DNA from: Gloeomargarita sp. SKYG116
Lineage (GTDB): Bacteria > Cyanobacteriota > Cyanobacteriia > Gloeomargaritales > Gloeomargaritaceae
Assembly (NCBI GenBank): GCA_025056115.1
Contig: JANWVM010000001.1
Location: 81,724-131,301, forward strand
Length of the DNA: 49,578 bases
Direction of reading: 5' to 3'
In this document: one piece after another, positions 358 through 49,479 of the stretch
Layout: each line of letters opens with the position of its first letter
Numbering within the stretch: position 1 is the first letter of the stretch
Translations under genes and position numbers: made by a program
The notes under the pieces: model-generated
The model's input: only the letters and a program-made list of their open reading frames with translations
What the model was told of the DNA's origin: nothing
Databases searched by the model: none

Positions 358-3300
358 ATGGCGGAATACCAAGGCATGACCCCCAGCATTGTCGTAGGAC
401 TGGGCGGCACTGGCAAGGAAGTCATCATCAAAATCCGGCGGATGATTGTCGAGACCTACGGCAGTTTGGATGCCTTGCCGATTGTTTCTTTCCTGCACGT
501 GGACACGGAACAAAACGCCAAGGTGTCGGAACCTCAGGTGGTGTTGAAACAAGATATTTCCCTGCGACCGGTGGAGCAAGTCTGGGCCAAAGTTGATAAC
601 GCCAAAGCCATCTTGAATCGCATTGCTGACTATGACTATCTCACCGAATGGTTTCCACCAGAACTCACCGGTACGGATTCCATTCTGGCGGGTGCGGGGC
701 AAATCCGGGCGCTGGGGAAATTCGCCTTTACCGTCAATTACCAAACCATCAAAAACGCTTTTGCCAATGCCCGTGCTCGTATTGTGGGCCACGAAAAATT
801 CATGCTGGACCGCTGGGGTGTGCAACTGGATAAAGGCGTCAACATTTTCATCGTGTGTTCCCTGAGCGGCGGGACGGGTTCCGGCATGGTGCTGGACATG
901 GCCTACAATGTGCGGGATTGGGTGCCGCCGTCGGATTTACCCCAAACCTGCGCATTTCTAGTGTTGCCGGGGGCCTTTTCGGGTCTGGGGGACCGGGTGA
1001 TTGCCAATGCCTACGCCGCCCTGATGGAACTCGACCACTACTCCCGTCCCAACACCCGTTTTGAAACTCAATACAGCAACAACATTGCCGACCGGATCAG
1101 CAGTCAAAATGCTCAAGATACCCCCTTTAGTTTCTGTTATCTAGTGGGCAACAGCAACGACAAGGTCACCCTGCCCAGTTTAGAAGCGGTTTTGGAAATG
1201 GTGGCCCAGAACATCTTTTTGGATTTCTCGTCTGGGTTTAGCCAGTACAAAAAGCTGGTGCGGGACAACATTCGCAAGCACTGGTCCAGCCCCGACCCCT
1301 TGGGGTTTCCCCAAAACTACATCACCTTTGGGTTGGCGAGTATCCAATTTCCGGTGCAGCGGGTGCTCAACGCCTGTGCGTCGCGGTTGGCCGTTGCGCT
1401 CGTGGACTGGTGGGCGAATCCCACGCCGGCCCCGACAGCCATGCGGGATGTGATTAAAACAGAAATTCTACCCAGCTTGGGCCTAGCTGAGTCGGAACAC
1501 AATCACCAATTGTTGGACAACCTGAGCGTGGGCGACAACATGAAACCCTACAGCAAAGAAGTATCGGATTGGGTGGCCAGCCTGCGCAAGCGTCGCAATG
1601 ATTTGAACATTCCCTTTGAGAATTTGCAGCGGTTTATTTCGGTAGAGGAAGAAAAATATCGGGTGCATTTTAACGACGCCGATAGCGACCCCCGCCGCTG
1701 GAGCGATTACTTCCAAAAGATGTGGGATAACCTGAACCGGCTGATTCCTCAGAAAACCAGAGAACTGCGAGAGACAGTGGCGCAAATGGTCGAAGACCGG
1801 TTCCGGGGACCAAAATGGGCGCGCCAGTTTCTGGAAGTGTTAATGGAAGTTTGGCTAGAGTTTCGCACCACGTTTGACCAGTCCCGCCAGAAAGAGTGGT
1901 TAGCCCGCGAGCGCTCTGCTAGTCAAGCCCTGCAAATCCTGCTTAAACAAATTGACAACCACGCCCGGCAAATGTTGCTGGTGAACAAGAAAAAAGTCAT
2001 TGATGACGATTTCAATGCCATCATGCAGGCACTAGAGTCTATTTATGTCTCCAAAGTTGAAGTCAAAGCGCGCGCTCTGGCGATTCCCTTACTTGATGCT
2101 CTGCGCGAAGAAACCCAGCGCCTGCTCAACGACCTGAATAACTTTGACAAAAACTTGGAAAATTTACGGCGGCAACTGGCGGAACGGGAGGAGGTTTATA
2201 CGCGCGAAACCGGCACCCTAACCGTCAACGGTATCCTCCTCTATGACCCCAAAGACATTGAACAAATCTACCAAAAAACCCTGGCGAATCGAGGCGACAG
2301 CGTGTTTCAGAGCATGACCCAAGACATCTGGGGTGGCATGGGAGGACGCCTGTTTGATTTGCACACCTTTGAACATTTGCGGCAACAGGATTTGTATCAA
2401 CGCATCATCAACCGGGCCATTGACGAGTTCAGCAACAGCGAGCAGTTAAAAGTTTCGGTGGCGGAGAAATTCATTGCCCAATATCCAACCGTGGAGCAAC
2501 AAGAAGCCCAACTGAAAAGCACCTTTGAAAAAAGCGAAGCCTTTTTACGGTTCAGCCAGGAACAAGCGCGATTGGGTTGGGATGACCGCCCTGAAAAACG
2601 GCAAACGCTTGTGGGGATTCAAGGGGGCAATAAACCCACCGATCCGGCTGTTGCGGCGTTATTACCCCTGTTGCGCAAAGCCACCACCTTGACGGACAAA
2701 GATATTCGGCCCTACAACGACCCCCACCACATCTATTTCGTGCGAGAGATTGGCGCATTTCCCCTGCGGTTGATTGAGGGGATGGAACGGATGCGCACGA
2801 TTTATCGGACGGTTTCCCAGATGGACCGCAATCCCCTGCACACCCACCACAATCGCCGGCTATTTGCCGATATCATGCCCCCATCGGGCGAAGAAATCCA
2901 AGTGCGGGAGAATTTGGTCTTGGGCCGCGTGTTTCAATTGCTTACCGAATCAGAAAATAAAATCACCGGCTACACCGAAATCAAGCTGAATTACCGCGAT
3001 AGTGCAACAGGTTTGGCGCGGAGTTTGAACCTGGGGAGCACCTGGGAGGAAGCCGAGCAGTATTTACTGGCAGACCAGAACCGGCGGGCACGGGAATTGC
3101 TCAACGATGAGATTCAAAAAATCCTCAAGCAAGCAACCACTAAAGATGCTAAGCGTGCCCTTTATGAACAGTTAATGAGCTACCTGCAAACCGTAGAACA
3201 AACCGTACCGGGTGGGCGTGATAACCCTGAATATCAACGTACCGAGGAAGTGATTAGCAATTGTGTGCGCAAATATGGGTTGTTTGAGCCAGGAATGACG

Positions 3301-3738
3301 GCAAATTCCACACCCACACCCGCAGCGACTCCTACTGTGAGTAAATCTGCCTCTACACCCCAGCTTGTGGCTGAACCGGCTGCCGGTGGAGTAGATAGCG
3401 CCCTTGAGAAATTTACCAAGCTGGTCGAAGCTTGTTTCAAAGGCGGCAAAACCCCATCAGAAAAGGAGTTAGAAATTCTCGATAAATTACGGGAGAAATA
3501 CGGGGTGAGCAAGGAAAAAGCTGCGGAAATTATTGCCCGTTACCAGCCAAAGCAAAATGACCCCGAACTAGCGGCCTATGAGTACGCTTTGATGTTCCGA
3601 GCCTTCTTGGAAAATGACGGCGAAATTGGCCTCGAGGAACGCGCCCAGTTGTTGGAATTACAAGAGGAATTACGGCTGACGGATGAACAGGTGGCAACCA
3701 TCGAAGCCAATATCCGGGACGAGTTGGGTCTCACTTGA
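358..3738 (+). CDS. Large tubulin-like (Tubulin_2-type) GTPase-fold protein
   Basis: A 1126-aa protein of the tubulin/FtsZ superfamily. The N-terminus has the nucleotide-fold opening IVVGLGGTGKE (11-21), and the tubulin signature SGGTGSG is at 170-176 after a hydrophobic strand (VNIFIVCSL). The rest of the first 400 residues fits the Tubulin_2 type seen in many cyanobacteria and other bacteria. The middle (about 430-760) is charged and probably helical or coiled-coil. A Thr/Pro/Ala-rich linker near 985-1010 leads to a 115-residue tail made of two similar helical modules (see findings). No signal peptide or obvious membrane helix is seen. FtsZ is about 350-420 aa, so this is nearly three times longer. 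The biological role is not established; membrane or cytoskeletal scaffolding is inference. The ATG at 358 has a GGAG only 2 nt upstream; Met7 (376) is an alternative start just before the glycine loop. Confidence 0.85.
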   Translation: MAEYQGMTPSIVVGLGGTGKEVIIKIRRMIVETYGSLDALPIVSFLHVDTEQNAKVSEPQVVLKQDISLRPVEQVWAKVDNAKAILNRIADYDYLTEWFPPELTGTDSILAGAGQIRALGKFAFTVNYQTIKNAFANARARIVGHEKFMLDRWGVQLDKGVNIFIVCSLSGGTGSGMVLDMAYNVRDWVPPSDLPQTCAFLVLPGAFSGLGDRVIANAYAALMELDHYSRPNTRFETQYSNNIADRISSQNAQDTPFSFCYLVGNSNDKVTLPSLEAVLEMVAQNIFLDFSSGFSQYKKLVRDNIRKHWSSPDPLGFPQNYITFGLASIQFPVQRVLNACASRLAVALVDWWANPTPAPTAMRDVIKTEILPSLGLAESEHNHQLLDNLSVGDNMKPYSKEVSDWVASLRKRRNDLNIPFENLQRFISVEEEKYRVHFNDADSDPRRWSDYFQKMWDNLNRLIPQKTRELRETVAQMVEDRFRGPKWARQFLEVLMEVWLEFRTTFDQSRQKEWLARERSASQALQILLKQIDNHARQMLLVNKKKVIDDDFNAIMQALESIYVSKVEVKARALAIPLLDALREETQRLLNDLNNFDKNLENLRRQLAEREEVYTRETGTLTVNGILLYDPKDIEQIYQKTLANRGDSVFQSMTQDIWGGMGGRLFDLHTFEHLRQQDLYQRIINRAIDEFSNSEQLKVSVAEKFIAQYPTVEQQEAQLKSTFEKSEAFLRFSQEQARLGWDDRPEKRQTLVGIQGGNKPTDPAVAALLPLLRKATTLTDKDIRPYNDPHHIYFVREIGAFPLRLIEGMERMRTIYRTVSQMDRNPLHTHHNRRLFADIMPPSGEEIQVRENLVLGRVFQLLTESENKITGYTEIKLNYRDSATGLARSLNLGSTWEEAEQYLLADQNRRARELLNDEIQKILKQATTKDAKRALYEQLMSYLQTVEQTVPGGRDNPEYQRTEEVISNCVRKYGLFEPGMTANSTPTPAATPTVSKSASTPQLVAEPAAGGVDSALEKFTKLVEACFKGGKTPSEKELEILDKLREKYGVSKEKAAEIIARYQPKQNDPELAAYEYALMFRAFLENDGEIGLEERAQLLELQEELRLTDEQVATIEANIRDELGLT

Positions 3739-3776
3739 TGTGATAAGTTACTAGGGATTGTTGCGTCGGATTGCCC

Positions 3777-4703
3777 ATGCGTATTTTGCTCACGGGTGGG
3801 GCAGGTTTTATTGGCTCCGCCGTACAAGATATTTACATCCAAGCCGGCCATGAGGTAGCAATTCTGGATGATTTCAGCACAGGCAACCCCGCTTACATCC
3901 ATCCCCGCAGCCAAGTCTATCGAGCCGATTTGCGAGACGCCGCCGCTGTGGAACGGATTATGCAGGAATGGCAACCAGATGTCGTGAGCCATCATGCAGC
4001 CCAAATTGACGTGCGGTTTTCGGTAGCCCAACCGGCAGCAGATGCCCAGATGAATATCTTGGGGTCGCTCCATCTTCTCGATGCGGCGGTGCGAATAGGA
4101 GTCAAACAATTTATCTTCGCGTCGTCAGGGGGGGCTTGTTATGGGGAATTGCAGCAAATTCCCGCGCCAGAAACCCATCCGTTGCAACCTATTTCGCCCT
4201 ATGGCATCGGCAAAGTAACGGTGGAGCGTTACCTGCATTTCTATCACCAAACCTATGGATTGCCCTACGTGATTTTGCGCTATGCCAATGTGTACGGTCC
4301 GCGCCAAGGAATGACTGGTGAAGCAGGGGTAATTACAGCGTTTATTCGTGCTTTTTTGACGGGGCAAACGCCGGTGATTTACGGCCAGGGTACCCAAACG
4401 CGGGACTATATCTATGTTGCAGATGTGGCGCAGGTGAATTTGCAAATTCTGGGCTGGCCGTCACCCTTGACGCTCAATGTTGGCACGGGCCAGGAAACGT
4501 CGGTTTTAGAGCTATACGAGTTGCTCCGGCAATTGATTCCGACGAAAATACGTCCCCAATTTCTACCGGCGCGTCCAGGCGAAGTGGCCCGCAGTGTGCT
4601 GGATATTTCCTATGCTCGTCAGGTACTAGGCTGGCAACCACAGACATCGTTGGTACAGGGATTACAGGCCACACTCGATTGGTACCGGCAAGTGCTACAG
4701 TAG
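3777..4703 (+). CDS. NAD-dependent epimerase/dehydratase (extended SDR, UDP-glucose 4-epimerase-like)
   Basis: A 308-aa extended short-chain dehydrogenase. It has the Rossmann motif GGAGFIG at residues 7-13, an acidic residue after strand 2 for NAD (DDFSTGN), the catalytic Ser region FASSGG (115-119) and Y142GIGK146. The sequence RYANVYGPRQ and the C-terminal half resemble UDP-glucose 4-epimerases and related nucleotide-sugar epimerases and decarboxylases. The likely role is making an activated sugar for cell-surface polysaccharide in the cytosol; the exact substrate cannot be read. ATG 3777 is preferred over the in-frame TTG at 3771 because MRILLTGG is the usual family beginning. It follows the tubulin-like gene by 38 bp and no glycosyltransferase is adjacent. 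Confidence 0.87.
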   Translation: MRILLTGGAGFIGSAVQDIYIQAGHEVAILDDFSTGNPAYIHPRSQVYRADLRDAAAVERIMQEWQPDVVSHHAAQIDVRFSVAQPAADAQMNILGSLHLLDAAVRIGVKQFIFASSGGACYGELQQIPAPETHPLQPISPYGIGKVTVERYLHFYHQTYGLPYVILRYANVYGPRQGMTGEAGVITAFIRAFLTGQTPVIYGQGTQTRDYIYVADVAQVNLQILGWPSPLTLNVGTGQETSVLELYELLRQLIPTKIRPQFLPARPGEVARSVLDISYARQVLGWQPQTSLVQGLQATLDWYRQVLQ

Positions 4704-27307: not shown

Positions 27308-27868
27308 ATGCAAATGCTGAAACGATTGCGGGAATGGGTCAGCTTGGGGGAGCCGGTGGAATATGACTATGACCCCGGTCAACACCAAACGACCCCGATG
27401 GCGACACCAACCAGCGACTACCGCGAACCCCCACGCCGGCGGGAACGCCCCTCGACAACGACTGCTACAGAACCCTCTACCCCCCGAACACCGATGAACA
27501 ATGTGATTGGTTTACCAACGGCTCACAACCAGCCCTTCGAAGTGGTGGTGATGGAACCCCGTTCGTTTGAGGAAATGCCGCAAGCTATCCAGGCCCTGCG
27601 GGAGCGGAAATCGGTGGTGCTTAATGTCACCCTGATGGAACCGGAGCTAGCCCAGCGAGCCGTGGATTTTGTAGCTGGCGGCACCTATGCGATTGACGGG
27701 CACCAGGAGCGGCTAGGGGAGAGCATTTTCCTGTTCACGCCCAATGGGGTGCAGGTAACCACCCGGACGTCGGTTCCCAATCCTACGCCGATGGAATCGC
27801 CCAGCCCATTGCGCAATACACCGCCAATTTGGACACCAGAAGCCATGCCGGCTTATCTCGCCCAGTAG
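27308..27868 (+). CDS. sepF: Cell division protein SepF (Cdv2)
   Basis: A 186-aa cytosolic protein that polymerises and ties FtsZ filaments to the membrane. The N-terminal helix MLKRLREWV is the amphipathic membrane-targeting segment. A disordered Pro/Thr/Arg-rich linker covers about residues 20-65. The SepF core follows (about 75-160) with [37 protein letters not shown] and [20 protein letters not shown] Pro/Ser-rich tail ends the protein. It lies 4 bp before proC, a conserved cyanobacterial pairing. Its partner FtsZ is encoded at 39831. Confidence 0.94.
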
Positions 27869-39765: not shown

Positions 39766-39830
39766 AATATGTTAGGGATAAATACAACTGGTCTGGGCAA
39801 CCGGATGCAGTTTTGACCTTTAGGGAGATA

Positions 39831-41078
39831 ATGTCTATCCATGAAGGCAACGAGTCGGGGGGCGAGTTGGGCATCTTGGCGCCCACTCCAGCGAGTGAAA
39901 CCCTACTGCCGAACGGGGACTCTAATACTACGCTCGTTCACCAGGTCGAAGCCGTGACATACAGTGATGAGATCATACCAAGCAATCTTGCTCGAATTAA
40001 GGTTATTGGCGTCGGCGGCGGCGGCGGCAATGCCGTTAACCGCATGATCCACAGCAACCTAACGGGGGTGGAGTTTTGGATCATCAATACGGATGCCCAG
40101 GCGCTCCATCATTCGGCCAATGCCAAACGGTTGCAAATTGGGCAGAAATTAACGCGCGGCCTAGGAGCAGGCGGCAACCCAGCTATTGGTCAAAAGGCGG
40201 CGGAAGAATCCCGCGAGGAAATTATGGCCGCCCTCGACCAGTCGGATTTAGTGTTTATCACGGCAGGGATGGGCGGCGGTACGGGGACTGGTGCAGCGCC
40301 AATTGTGGCGGAAGTGGCGAAAGAACTAGGGGCCTTGACCGTCGCCATTGTCACGCGGCCATTCACGTTTGAAGGGAAACGCCGGGCAGCTCAGGCGGAA
40401 GAGGGTATTGCTATGCTCCAGAGCCGGGTGGATACCCTGATTGTCATTCCTAACGACCGCCTGTTGACCACAATTGGGGAATCTACACCGGTGCAGGAGG
40501 CGTTTCGGGTGGCGGATGACATTTTGCGCCAGGGGGTGCAAGGCATTTCCGACATTATTACGATTCCGGGTCTAGTCAACGTGGACTTTGCCGATGTGAA
40601 GGCGATCATGGCCGATGCTGGGTCAGCGTTGATGGGAATTGGTACAGGTACGGGGAAAGGCCGGGCTGCCGAAGCAGCGAATATGGCGATTGCCTCACCC
40701 CTGCTGGAGTCTTCGATTCACGGGGCCAAGGGTGTGCTGTTTAATATCACCGGGGGCAGCGATTTGAGCCTGCACGAGGTGAATACGGCAGCAGAAATCA
40801 TTTACAACGTGGTGGACCCGGAAGCGAACATTATCTTCGGAGCGGTATTAGACGACCGCTTGCAGGGAGAGGTGCGGATTACGGTGATTGCCACTGGTTT
40901 CCAACCGGCTGTACCGAGCACTAGTTCATTGCCGCGACCGCAACCTACGGTTCGGCCTGTGACCCCGGTGCCCAACCATGCCGCCACGCCTAATGTGGAC
41001 CTGAAGCCCCAGGTGGAGGAGCCACCGCCAGAAATTGATATTCCTGATTTCTTAAAACGGCGACGGCCACGGCGTTGA
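39831..41078 (+). CDS. ftsZ: Cell division GTPase FtsZ
   Basis: A 415-aa tubulin homologue that polymerises into the division ring. A variable N-terminal extension of about 60 residues precedes the core opening [18 protein letters not shown]. The GTP signature [10 protein letters not shown] is near residue 147, the nucleotide-contacting NDRLL and the T7 synergy loop [11 protein letters not shown] follow. The C-terminal peptide [15 protein letters not shown] binds membrane tethers. The long N-terminal extension is normal in cyanobacteria. ATG 39831 has AGGGAG about 4 nt upstream; a TTG at 39813 is less likely. SepF, its tether, is at 27308. Confidence 0.97.
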
Positions 41079-46985: not shown

Positions 46986-48278
46986 ATGCTGCTTGCCTAT
47001 TTAGACCCAGACCAGCGGGCGTTCTTGACTCGCATTGCCCAGGCCGTCGCTGCCATGGGTGGGCACGTGTACTTGGTAGGGGGCGGGGTACGGGATTTGC
47101 TGCTGGCCCAATCCCAGGGGCAGACCATCACCTTGAGCGACATGGATTTGGTGCTCGATCAGGTGTCTCCGGATGCCATTGGCGAATTGGCGCAACAGAT
47201 GAGTCGCTGGCGTCCTGGCGCCCTGGTGCAACCCCATCCCAAGTTCCACACCTGCGATTTGCTCTGGCCGGATTTGGCCTTGGATTTAGCCCTAGCGCGG
47301 CGAGAGACCTATCCCCATCCAGCGGCCAACCCCCTGGTCACGCCAGCGGACATCCACCAGGATTTACACCGCCGCGACTTTACCATCAATGCCATGGCGC
47401 TGGGTTTACATCCCGCAGGCGTTTTGCTGGACCCATTTGATGGGCAGGGGGATTTGCAGCGCAAGTCTTTGCGGGTGTTGCATGAACGGAGCTTCGCTGA
47501 TGACCCCACTCGGCTATGGCGGGGCGTGCGCTATGGGGTGCGCTACGGGTTGCAATTTGCCCCGGAAACCGTAGCCCAATGGCATGCGACGTTAGCCAGC
47601 GGTGTGTATGAATACTGGCGCCAACAACCAGGACAAGCGCCGGCGTTGCAAACCCGCTTGCGAGCGGAATTGCACTATCTCTGGCAAATGGCGCAGTGGG
47701 TCCAGGCGGGACGGTGGTTAGAAGCGCTAGGCGCCTGGGCCTGCATTCACCCCGAACTGCACTGGACGCCGGCGTTGGAACGCAGTCTGCGCACCGCCAG
47801 TTACGTCCTGCGCCACCATCCCCACCGGCATCGGTGTCTCACCGAATTACTAGTCAGCTACGTCCCACCGGCGGATCGCTATGCTGTGGCGCATTGTCTG
47901 GATTTACCTTTGGCCGCCCAGAAACGCTTGGCCCAACTGGAGCACCTGGAAACTCAGTTGCCGGCATTACCCGCCTTGCCCGTGAGCCAAATTTGCCAGA
48001 CATTAGAGCCTTACGAGCCGGAACTCCTCTGGCTGGCCCTATTTCGGCAGCGGGGAAACATCCGCAACATCCTACGCAACTATTTGCAGTACTGGTCCCA
48101 CGAACACCCGCCCTTAAACGGCAAAGATTTACGGGAGCTAGGGTATCAGCCCGGACCCCAATTTCGTCAGATTCTTTCCCGTTTGCGTTCCGCCTACCTA
48201 GACCGAGAAATTACCGACCGCACGGAAGCCATTGCCTACGTCCAGCGGTACTTCCCTAGGGTTTCACCCGGTCAATGA
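46986..48278 (+). CDS. tRNA nucleotidyltransferase / poly(A) polymerase family (class II)
   Basis: A 430-aa template-independent polymerase. The head motif VYLVGGGVRDLLL is near residues 20-32, and the metal-binding Asp pair is in SDMDLVLD. RRDFTINAMALG and the ADDPTRLWRGVRYGVRYG motif (nucleotide selection) follow. The C-terminal body and tail domains are present. In several cyanobacteria CC- and A-adding activities are split between two enzymes, so the exact activity is open. It fits the three tRNA genes here that lack encoded CCA. ATG 46986 (or GTG 46983) follows AGGGAA. The end overlaps the convergent gene by 23 bp. Confidence 0.9.
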   Translation: MLLAYLDPDQRAFLTRIAQAVAAMGGHVYLVGGGVRDLLLAQSQGQTITLSDMDLVLDQVSPDAIGELAQQMSRWRPGALVQPHPKFHTCDLLWPDLALDLALARRETYPHPAANPLVTPADIHQDLHRRDFTINAMALGLHPAGVLLDPFDGQGDLQRKSLRVLHERSFADDPTRLWRGVRYGVRYGLQFAPETVAQWHATLASGVYEYWRQQPGQAPALQTRLRAELHYLWQMAQWVQAGRWLEALGAWACIHPELHWTPALERSLRTASYVLRHHPHRHRCLTELLVSYVPPADRYAVAHCLDLPLAAQKRLAQLEHLETQLPALPALPVSQICQTLEPYEPELLWLALFRQRGNIRNILRNYLQYWSHEHPPLNGKDLRELGYQPGPQFRQILSRLRSAYLDREITDRTEAIAYVQRYFPRVSPGQ

Positions 48279-49479
48279 CGCGAATTTTGCCATCGGGCGT
48301 CACCTGCCACACATCATAGCTCCCCACCACATCCCCAAATGCGTCAAAATCCACATTGCCGCTGGCGCCCTGGTAATTAATGTCCTGGCCCTGTTTGAGC
48401 AGCGCCAAACCCTGACAGACATCCGTAACCGGTTGACCTGGTGGATTGCCAATCTCGCGAATCTTGGGCGCAATATCCACCCCGCGATTGCTCTGGGCCG
48501 CCTGCGCCGCTAAGATAATCACCGCCGCCGCATCCCAGGTTTGGGCTGTAAAAGGGGGCAAGGCCGTACCCCGTTTCTCGCGCCAGAGTTTCTCCAAGGC
48601 CGCCAGTGCTGGTCCATCCGCCCCCGGCACCGTGCCAATCGCTCCCGCAATAATGAATTGCCCCTGGGGATTTTTGCCCACACTGGTGACGAACTGCTCC
48701 GACTGCACCGCATCCGTCAGTAACAATTGCACCCCTGGCAACAGCCCTTGCTCATAGGCCGATTTCAACAACAGCGCTCCCGTTTCCGCATAGACCGCTG
48801 CCATCACCGCCTGGGGTTTGTTAGCGAAGGCGCTGCGGGCTTCACTTTCCAAGGTCGTGGCATTGGGGTCGTAGCGGGTGGGACGATTAACAATCTGGCC
48901 GCCTTTTTGGGTGAAGGCTCGGGTAAACTCCCGTTCAAACCCCAGGCCATAGCTGTTGTTAATCACCACCGTACTGACACGCCGGAGTCCCCGTTTCAAG
49001 GCCAAGGCCGCCAATGCAGCACCCTGGTAGGTATCCGGCGGAGCTGTGCGGTACCAAAAGCCCTTGTATTCGCCTTTCTTGGCCCGTTCGGTGAACTCGG
49101 GACTGGTGCTCCCCGGCGACACCAGCGGCACCTGGTTACGCACCGCCACATCCAACGCCGCCTGGGACACGCTGCTGGCAAAAGAACCCACCACACCCCC
49201 CACCTGGTTGACTTCCGCCAGTTTGGTCATCGCGGCGGCCCCTGCGGTTGGTTGCGTCTGGTCGTCTTCTTGGAAGACCTGCACCGGCTGGCCGTTGACC
49301 CCCCCGCAGGCGTTCACCTGTTCCACCAGCAGATTCACCGCCGGAATCATCTCTTGTCCCAAGGGCGCCAAATCCCCGGTTGCCGGCAACAGGACGCCCA
49401 ATTTCAACCCTTGGGGCGCTGGTTGACAACCCGCCAACAACCCCGTCAATGCCAGTCCTGGAATCACCCACCGTTTCAT
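48256..49479 (-). CDS. Branched-chain-amino-acid-type ABC substrate-binding lipoprotein
   Basis: A 407-aa periplasmic binding protein (peripla_BP_6 type). The signal ends in a lipobox: VIPGLALTGLLAGC, Cys18. LGVLLPATGDLAPLGQEM, VNACGGVNGQPVQVFQEDDQT, VGGVVGSFASSVSQAAL and QVPLVSPGSTSP are the typical LivJ/NatB-like ligand pocket segments. The C-terminal half carries DYQG-like SGNVDFDAFGDV. Cyanobacterial relatives take up neutral amino acids (NatB-like) or urea; the ligand cannot be read. No permease or ATPase genes are adjacent in this window. Confidence 0.9.
   Translation of the reverse strand: MKRWVIPGLALTGLLAGCQPAPQGLKLGVLLPATGDLAPLGQEMIPAVNLLVEQVNACGGVNGQPVQVFQEDDQTQPTAGAAAMTKLAEVNQVGGVVGSFASSVSQAALDVAVRNQVPLVSPGSTSPEFTERAKKGEYKGFWYRTAPPDTYQGAALAALALKRGLRRVSTVVINNSYGLGFEREFTRAFTQKGGQIVNRPTRYDPNATTLESEARSAFANKPQAVMAAVYAETGALLLKSAYEQGLLPGVQLLLTDAVQSEQFVTSVGKNPQGQFIIAGAIGTVPGADGPALAALEKLWREKRGTALPPFTAQTWDAAAVIILAAQAAQSNRGVDIAPKIREIGNPPGQPVTDVCQGLALLKQGQDINYQGASGNVDFDAFGDVVGSYDVWQVTPDGKIRVIDRVKP

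Follow-up and report, generated by a model that had tools for sequence, protein, structure and literature searches.

A Tubulin_2 protein of Gloeomargarita and its candidate zinc-ribbon receptor partners among the cyanobacteria

The stretch of DNA analysed here (49,578 nucleotides from Gloeomargarita sp. SKYG116, referred to below as the window) carries near one end an intact gene for a protein of 1126 residues whose N-terminal part matches the Pfam family Tubulin_2 (E 3.9e-96, curated cut-off 27; see Table 1 for the score and for all coordinates). The classic Tubulin model gave a sub-threshold match only, around the GGTGSG loop, and Pfam searches found neither an FtsZ_C domain in the protein nor any family in the central region, while no NCBIfam model matched it. 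The gene is single-copy in its own genome (2.37 Mb, placed with the Gloeomargaritales) and a relative of 87% identity is found in Gloeomargaritales cyanobacterium VI4D9; orthologues that match it in length and architecture were found in many genomes, which rules out misassembly or an artificial fusion as the source of its length. The window protein belongs to a known family, named FtsZ-like 1 (FtsZl1; Pfam Tubulin_2, PF13809) by Makarova and Koonin in 2010, who described an N-terminal tubulin-like domain, a coiled-coil middle and a helical C-terminus with no identifiable T6–H7–T7, and who already noted cyanobacterial members (PMC2875224). With that description it shares the tubulin-like N-terminus with T1 and T4, the long helical middle, the helical C-terminus and the lack of a recognisable T6–H7–T7. 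A later survey set Tubulin_2 proteins apart as divergent and excluded them from its main trees (PMC9871819).

Table 1. Positions of the features in the window, with the evidence on which each was assigned.
Feature	Position	Strand	Evidence
Gene for 1126-residue Tubulin_2 (FtsZ-like 1) protein, type A	358..3738	+	Intact ORF, ATG start
Tubulin_2 domain, residues 11–349	388..1404	+	PF13809, 322.8 bits
T1-like phosphate loop GLGGTGKE, residues 14–21	397..420	+	G14 and G16–G19 invariant in types A, B and C; aligns with FtsZ GVGGGG
T3-like loop AGAGQIRALGKFAF, residues 111–124	688..729	+	G112, A113, R117, G120 and A123 invariant; aligns with FtsZ
T4 signature loop GGTGSG, residues 171–176	868..885	+	Invariant in types A, B and C
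Long central region, residues 350–975, predicted mostly helical (long helices 484–538 and 544–618)	1405..3282	+	Low-confidence model
Variable Pro/Ser/Thr-rich linker, residues 976–1010	3283..3387	+	Mean column conservation 0.36 (0.7–0.8 where the tail is best conserved)
Tail unit 1, three helices, residues 1013–1070	3394..3567	+	Profile comparison and tail model
Tail unit 2, three helices, residues 1071–1124	3568..3729	+	Profile comparison and tail model
NAD-dependent sugar epimerase/dehydratase family gene	3771..4703	+	Same strand, 32 bp past the Tubulin_2 stop
sepF	about 27308..27868
ftsZ	39813..41078		Tubulin and FtsZ_C domains
Separate Peripla_BP_6 / ANF_receptor protein without zinc ribbon, far end of window	48256..49479	-

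A full-length AlphaFold2 model (mean pLDDT 52) was too poor for detailed reading; most of the top matches in a fold search with this low-confidence model were tubulins (best 9e2g_AB, probability 0.99, E 0.07), with nothing below E 0.001. A PDB sequence search with a single Tubulin_2 protein gave nothing useful, and one with the Tubulin_2 profile gave tubulin matches which were all sub-threshold. When 52 Tubulin_2 sequences were compared with 28 FtsZ sequences in a blind profile alignment, T1, the acidic turn after strand 2, T3, T4 and helix 5 (H5) were in register (P 0.0015, with low probability), and the key residues of T1, T3 and T4 are invariant over the three cyanobacterial types of Tubulin_2 described below. 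The T3 match would add a third nucleotide loop beside T1 and T4, and nucleotide binding by the domain is likely given the alignment of all three loops with FtsZ and the invariance of their key residues. The initial annotation had read a tubulin/FtsZ nucleotide fold of the Tubulin_2 type in a chain of 1126 residues with GGTGSG at residues 171–176, and the chain was confirmed and the fold supported. The T6–H7–T7 segment, which in FtsZ is required for hydrolysis and filament contacts, was not recognisable in Tubulin_2, the alignment to FtsZ ending at H5 in agreement with the 2010 family description, and a T7 loop picked by eye (NIFLDFSS or RDN motifs) was rejected for the same reason. The window protein and FtsZ/tubulin thus share the order of T1, T3, T4 and H5, but the window protein is more than twice as long, is without FtsZ_C or tubulin_C and a recognised T7, and has a central helical region and a tail as extra parts.

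Column conservation drops to 0.36 over residues 976–1000 of the variable linker and rises again to 0.7–0.8 in parts of residues 1026–1125, making the tail a conserved module on a variable tether; it is single-copy in its own genome. The tail had been described from the sequence as a duplicated, TerB/EF-hand-like module. A profile–profile comparison of its halves over 25 orthologues aligned positions 17–50 with 17–50 in register (P 6.5e-4, but with a probability of only 28%), the halves of the window sequence alone gave 0.08 in a shuffle test, and the tail modelled by itself with AlphaFold2 (pLDDT 85.5) has six helices in two consecutive sets of three, so that the duplication is supported, if weakly, though not proven. 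Sub-threshold matches were found to TerB in 7/17 orthologous tails (best E 0.0016) and to DUF533 in 10/17 (best E 0.0014), while the window tail itself had no TerB match in Pfam and a PDB fold search with the tail model found no TerB structure and no close fold. The recurrent matches would be compatible with a distant kinship to TerB-type helical modules, which they do not establish. The EF-hand part of the description found no support, with no EF-hand family among the Pfam matches of the window tail or of the orthologous tails, and only weak calbindin-type matches (E 0.17 or worse) between the tail and PDB sequences.

Tubulin_2 matches were found in 83/291 sampled genomes of the cyanobacterial class, and three types exist, a distinction that is new here. 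Type A proteins are 61–96% identical to the window protein over the full length of intact genes (53–81% for fragments of broken genes); type B proteins, from Thermosynechococcus and others, are only about 30% identical (about 35% in the best segment), and type C proteins, from Nostoc-type genomes plus two Gloeomargarita genomes, about 26–29%. Types A and B are separated with full support in the gene tree, the Gloeomargarita type A genes form one clade, and Gloeobacter, whose position was read for signs of deep vertical ancestry of type A, was not at the base. At the C-terminus, type B proteins have a SHOCT-like segment (a helix pair in the Thermosynechococcus relatives), a zinc ribbon joined on by fusion, or a different tandem tail. 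We note that the Tubulin_2 reading frame is broken, or mis-assembled, in several genomes (L043, L047, L051 and G290).

The gene immediately downstream in the window, for the epimerase/dehydratase, occupies the same place in 7/7 Gloeomargarita genomes and in no other genus; it was rejected as a partner on this account, and is probably a local neighbour rather than part of a system. As the initial annotation had stated, ftsZ and sepF are found in the same 50 kb, and this proximity might point to a protein that assists FtsZ and SepF in cell division. The implied tie is not supported, however, as the two genes are 24–36 kb off and are not among the genes conserved near type A in other genera, and we regard the proximity as chance. 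Type A is moreover absent from about 90% of the sampled cyanobacterial genomes (present in 30/291) while ftsZ is general (29/29 genomes), and a role in division is very improbable.

A more promising neighbour became apparent in the 20 type A loci outside Gloeomargarita, where in 17/20 cases a gene for what we refer to as the receptor lies downstream within 3.3 kb (15 within about 211 bp), usually as the very next gene. At their N-terminus the receptors have a zinc ribbon with four cysteines that resembles CPKCGxDxNPxTAxKCEICGxxLKK; one membrane helix follows, and after it a large domain which varies with lineage: Peripla_BP_6 in the Nodosilinea group, PBP_like_2 in Nostoc, Phormidesmis and Gloeobacter, and NMT1 plus OmpA in Xenococcus and a Nostocales MAG. 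Among the three loci with no linked receptor, one genome (G249) has an unlinked receptor and the other two loci end at contig breaks; in one of these two, Gloeobacterales ES-bin-141 (the same assembly as G113), the receptor lies beside the 3′ half of the type A gene on another contig. In two Nodosilinea-type genomes (L038 and L039) unrelated genes, AAA-like and GIY-YIG/T5orf172-like, stand between type A and the receptor.

There is no receptor beside the Tubulin_2 gene of the window, and its genome encodes three zinc-ribbon proteins elsewhere, two of them tandem receptors with PstS-like domains (G000:C11) and the third (L079, G000:C177:4915-6039) joining the zinc ribbon and membrane helix to a seven-repeat WD40 propeller. 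In this last protein and its relatives (L142 and L150) the propeller replaces the solute-binding domain, and the arrangement is conserved in Gloeomargarita. The other Gloeomargarita genomes also retain unlinked receptors, with the exception of one that is 83% complete (G096). The receptors share the PBP_like_2 or Peripla_BP_6 domain family with PstS and LivJ-type periplasmic binding proteins, but differ in being fused through one membrane helix to a zinc ribbon and in having no transporter genes conserved alongside. As the domains are of solute-binding families and no permease or transporter gene is conserved beside the receptors, sensing or anchoring is favoured over transport.

A zinc-ribbon/helix profile run against the 291 genomes matched strongly (E no higher than 1e-15) in 28/30 genomes with type A and in 0/261 without. 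It should be noted that the profile was built mainly from receptors linked to type A genes and would miss quite different ribbons; Fisher's exact test (5e-37) overstates the case because species share ancestry and because of this origin of the profile. The co-occurrence spans eight families, and the receptor is retained though unlinked in six Gloeomargarita genomes and in G249. The two type A genomes with no strong match are the incomplete G096 and one in which the tubulin gene is cut at a contig end (G083). The next scores, 52 and 48 bits, came from two genomes that are 82–83% complete and in which no type A was found (L145 in G201 and L146 in G241), and these proteins, one OmpA-ended and one PstS-like, are receptor relatives by reading of their sequences, so that the pairing is very strong but not absolute.

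Type B offers a further comparison, as at several of its loci a variant zinc ribbon, a helix and a domain 29–38% identical to type A receptors are encoded upstream, and this architecture would be independent support for the pairing; a linked receptor is absent at the Thermosynechococcus type B loci and the type C loci examined. Two type B proteins (L086 and L097) carry a zinc ribbon, CTSCGFKNPATSNFCAKCGTKL, as a C-terminal fusion within their last 40 residues. Fusions of this sort are often a sign that the joined parts interact. Shown by comparative genomics, the pairing suggests the receptor as a specific candidate partner for type A Tubulin_2.

In 2010 the FtsZ-like 1 family was predicted to act in membrane remodelling because vWA, GTPase and OmpA proteins are encoded nearby, a vWA operon being common in the family but not universal; a reviewer noted a branched-chain amino acid binding protein beside one Arthrospira gene, and the authors deemed such cases lineage-specific (PMC2875224). 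Type C loci fit the vWA pattern, with a vWA protein upstream in 15/15 and a MotB/OmpA-like protein nearby in 14/15. The conserved order is vWA, Tubulin_2, a membrane/coiled-coil protein weakly like MotA/ExbB (20.5 bits in the one tested, just under the cut-off), and a small protein whose membrane start resembles MotB and whose end resembles OmpA (L054, L059, L069–L071, L089–L095 and L098–L100); a tubulin-like protein beside a possible ion-driven motor pair merits a study of its own. Type A differs: a search within 9 kb of the 27 type A loci found nothing related to the vWA proteins of type B or C, and the conserved partner is instead a zinc-ribbon/membrane-helix/solute-binding protein. For type A, a remodelling machine would form filaments at the inner membrane, tethered by the zinc-ribbon proteins, and the solute-binding-like domains would be mere envelope anchors. 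Such a role would be in keeping with the published proposal, with the membrane-anchored partner found here and with the OmpA peptidoglycan-binding domain in which some receptors end, but type A loci lack the vWA partner emphasised in 2010, T7 is not recognised, and the periplasmic domains, being of known solute-binding families, speak for sensing; we consider it rather unlikely.

Tubulin-domain proteins are also among the listed components of the GTPase-centric conflict systems of Firmicutes and Actinobacteria (Kaur et al. 2020; PMC7159879), and type A shares with these the tubulin-domain protein, an extra C-terminal helical region and membrane association. An anti-phage or stress role of this kind is nonetheless improbable, as no vWA relative was found beside type A, which is a stable chromosomal gene in Gloeomargarita (the same neighbour in 7/7 genomes and a single clade for the genus), and no meaningful PADLOC match was obtained. 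No relative of the Tubulin_2 protein was found in the viral contigs searched, and there is therefore no phage link. Of the alternatives, membrane remodelling ranks first, a conflict system second and a role in division last.

Our preferred reading, to which we would give about even chances, is that the window protein is a cytoplasmic, tubulin-fold and nucleotide-binding hub of the FtsZ-like 1 family that works with orphan envelope receptors. The hub would bind nucleotide through its Tubulin_2 domain, while each receptor would have its zinc ribbon in the cytoplasm, one helix in the inner membrane and a sensor domain in the periplasm (PstS-like, branched-chain-amino-acid-binding-like, NMT1-like plus OmpA, or WD40). 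The helical tail on its flexible linker might bring the tubulin protein to the membrane by docking to the zinc ribbon, and the nucleotide state of the tubulin domain, and probably its self-association, would be coupled to what the receptor binds. GTP turnover, assembly, the direction of signalling and the ligand are all conjectural elements of this model. A more specific form, which is possible and which we offer tentatively, is that one tubulin-fold switch serves interchangeable receptors through a shared zinc-ribbon plug, with the binding of solute in the periplasm controlling nucleotide state or assembly.

Tubulin_2 proteins are among the most divergent of the tubulin superfamily and are present in many bacteria and archaea, and we found no experimental or functional study of any of them in the open-access literature. 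Type A is kept in Gloeomargarita (7/7 sampled) and in a family of the Gloeobacterales (6/6 sampled), two lineages that matter for the evolution of plastids and of early cyanobacteria. The repeat in the tail, which is moderately supported, is a modest detail, and it is the receptor pairing that specialists would want to test. With a partner whose sequence, gene order and distribution over the phylogeny are conserved, a 'function unknown' becomes a testable two-component interaction, and if the model is true, ligand sensing would join the known uses of tubulin folds.
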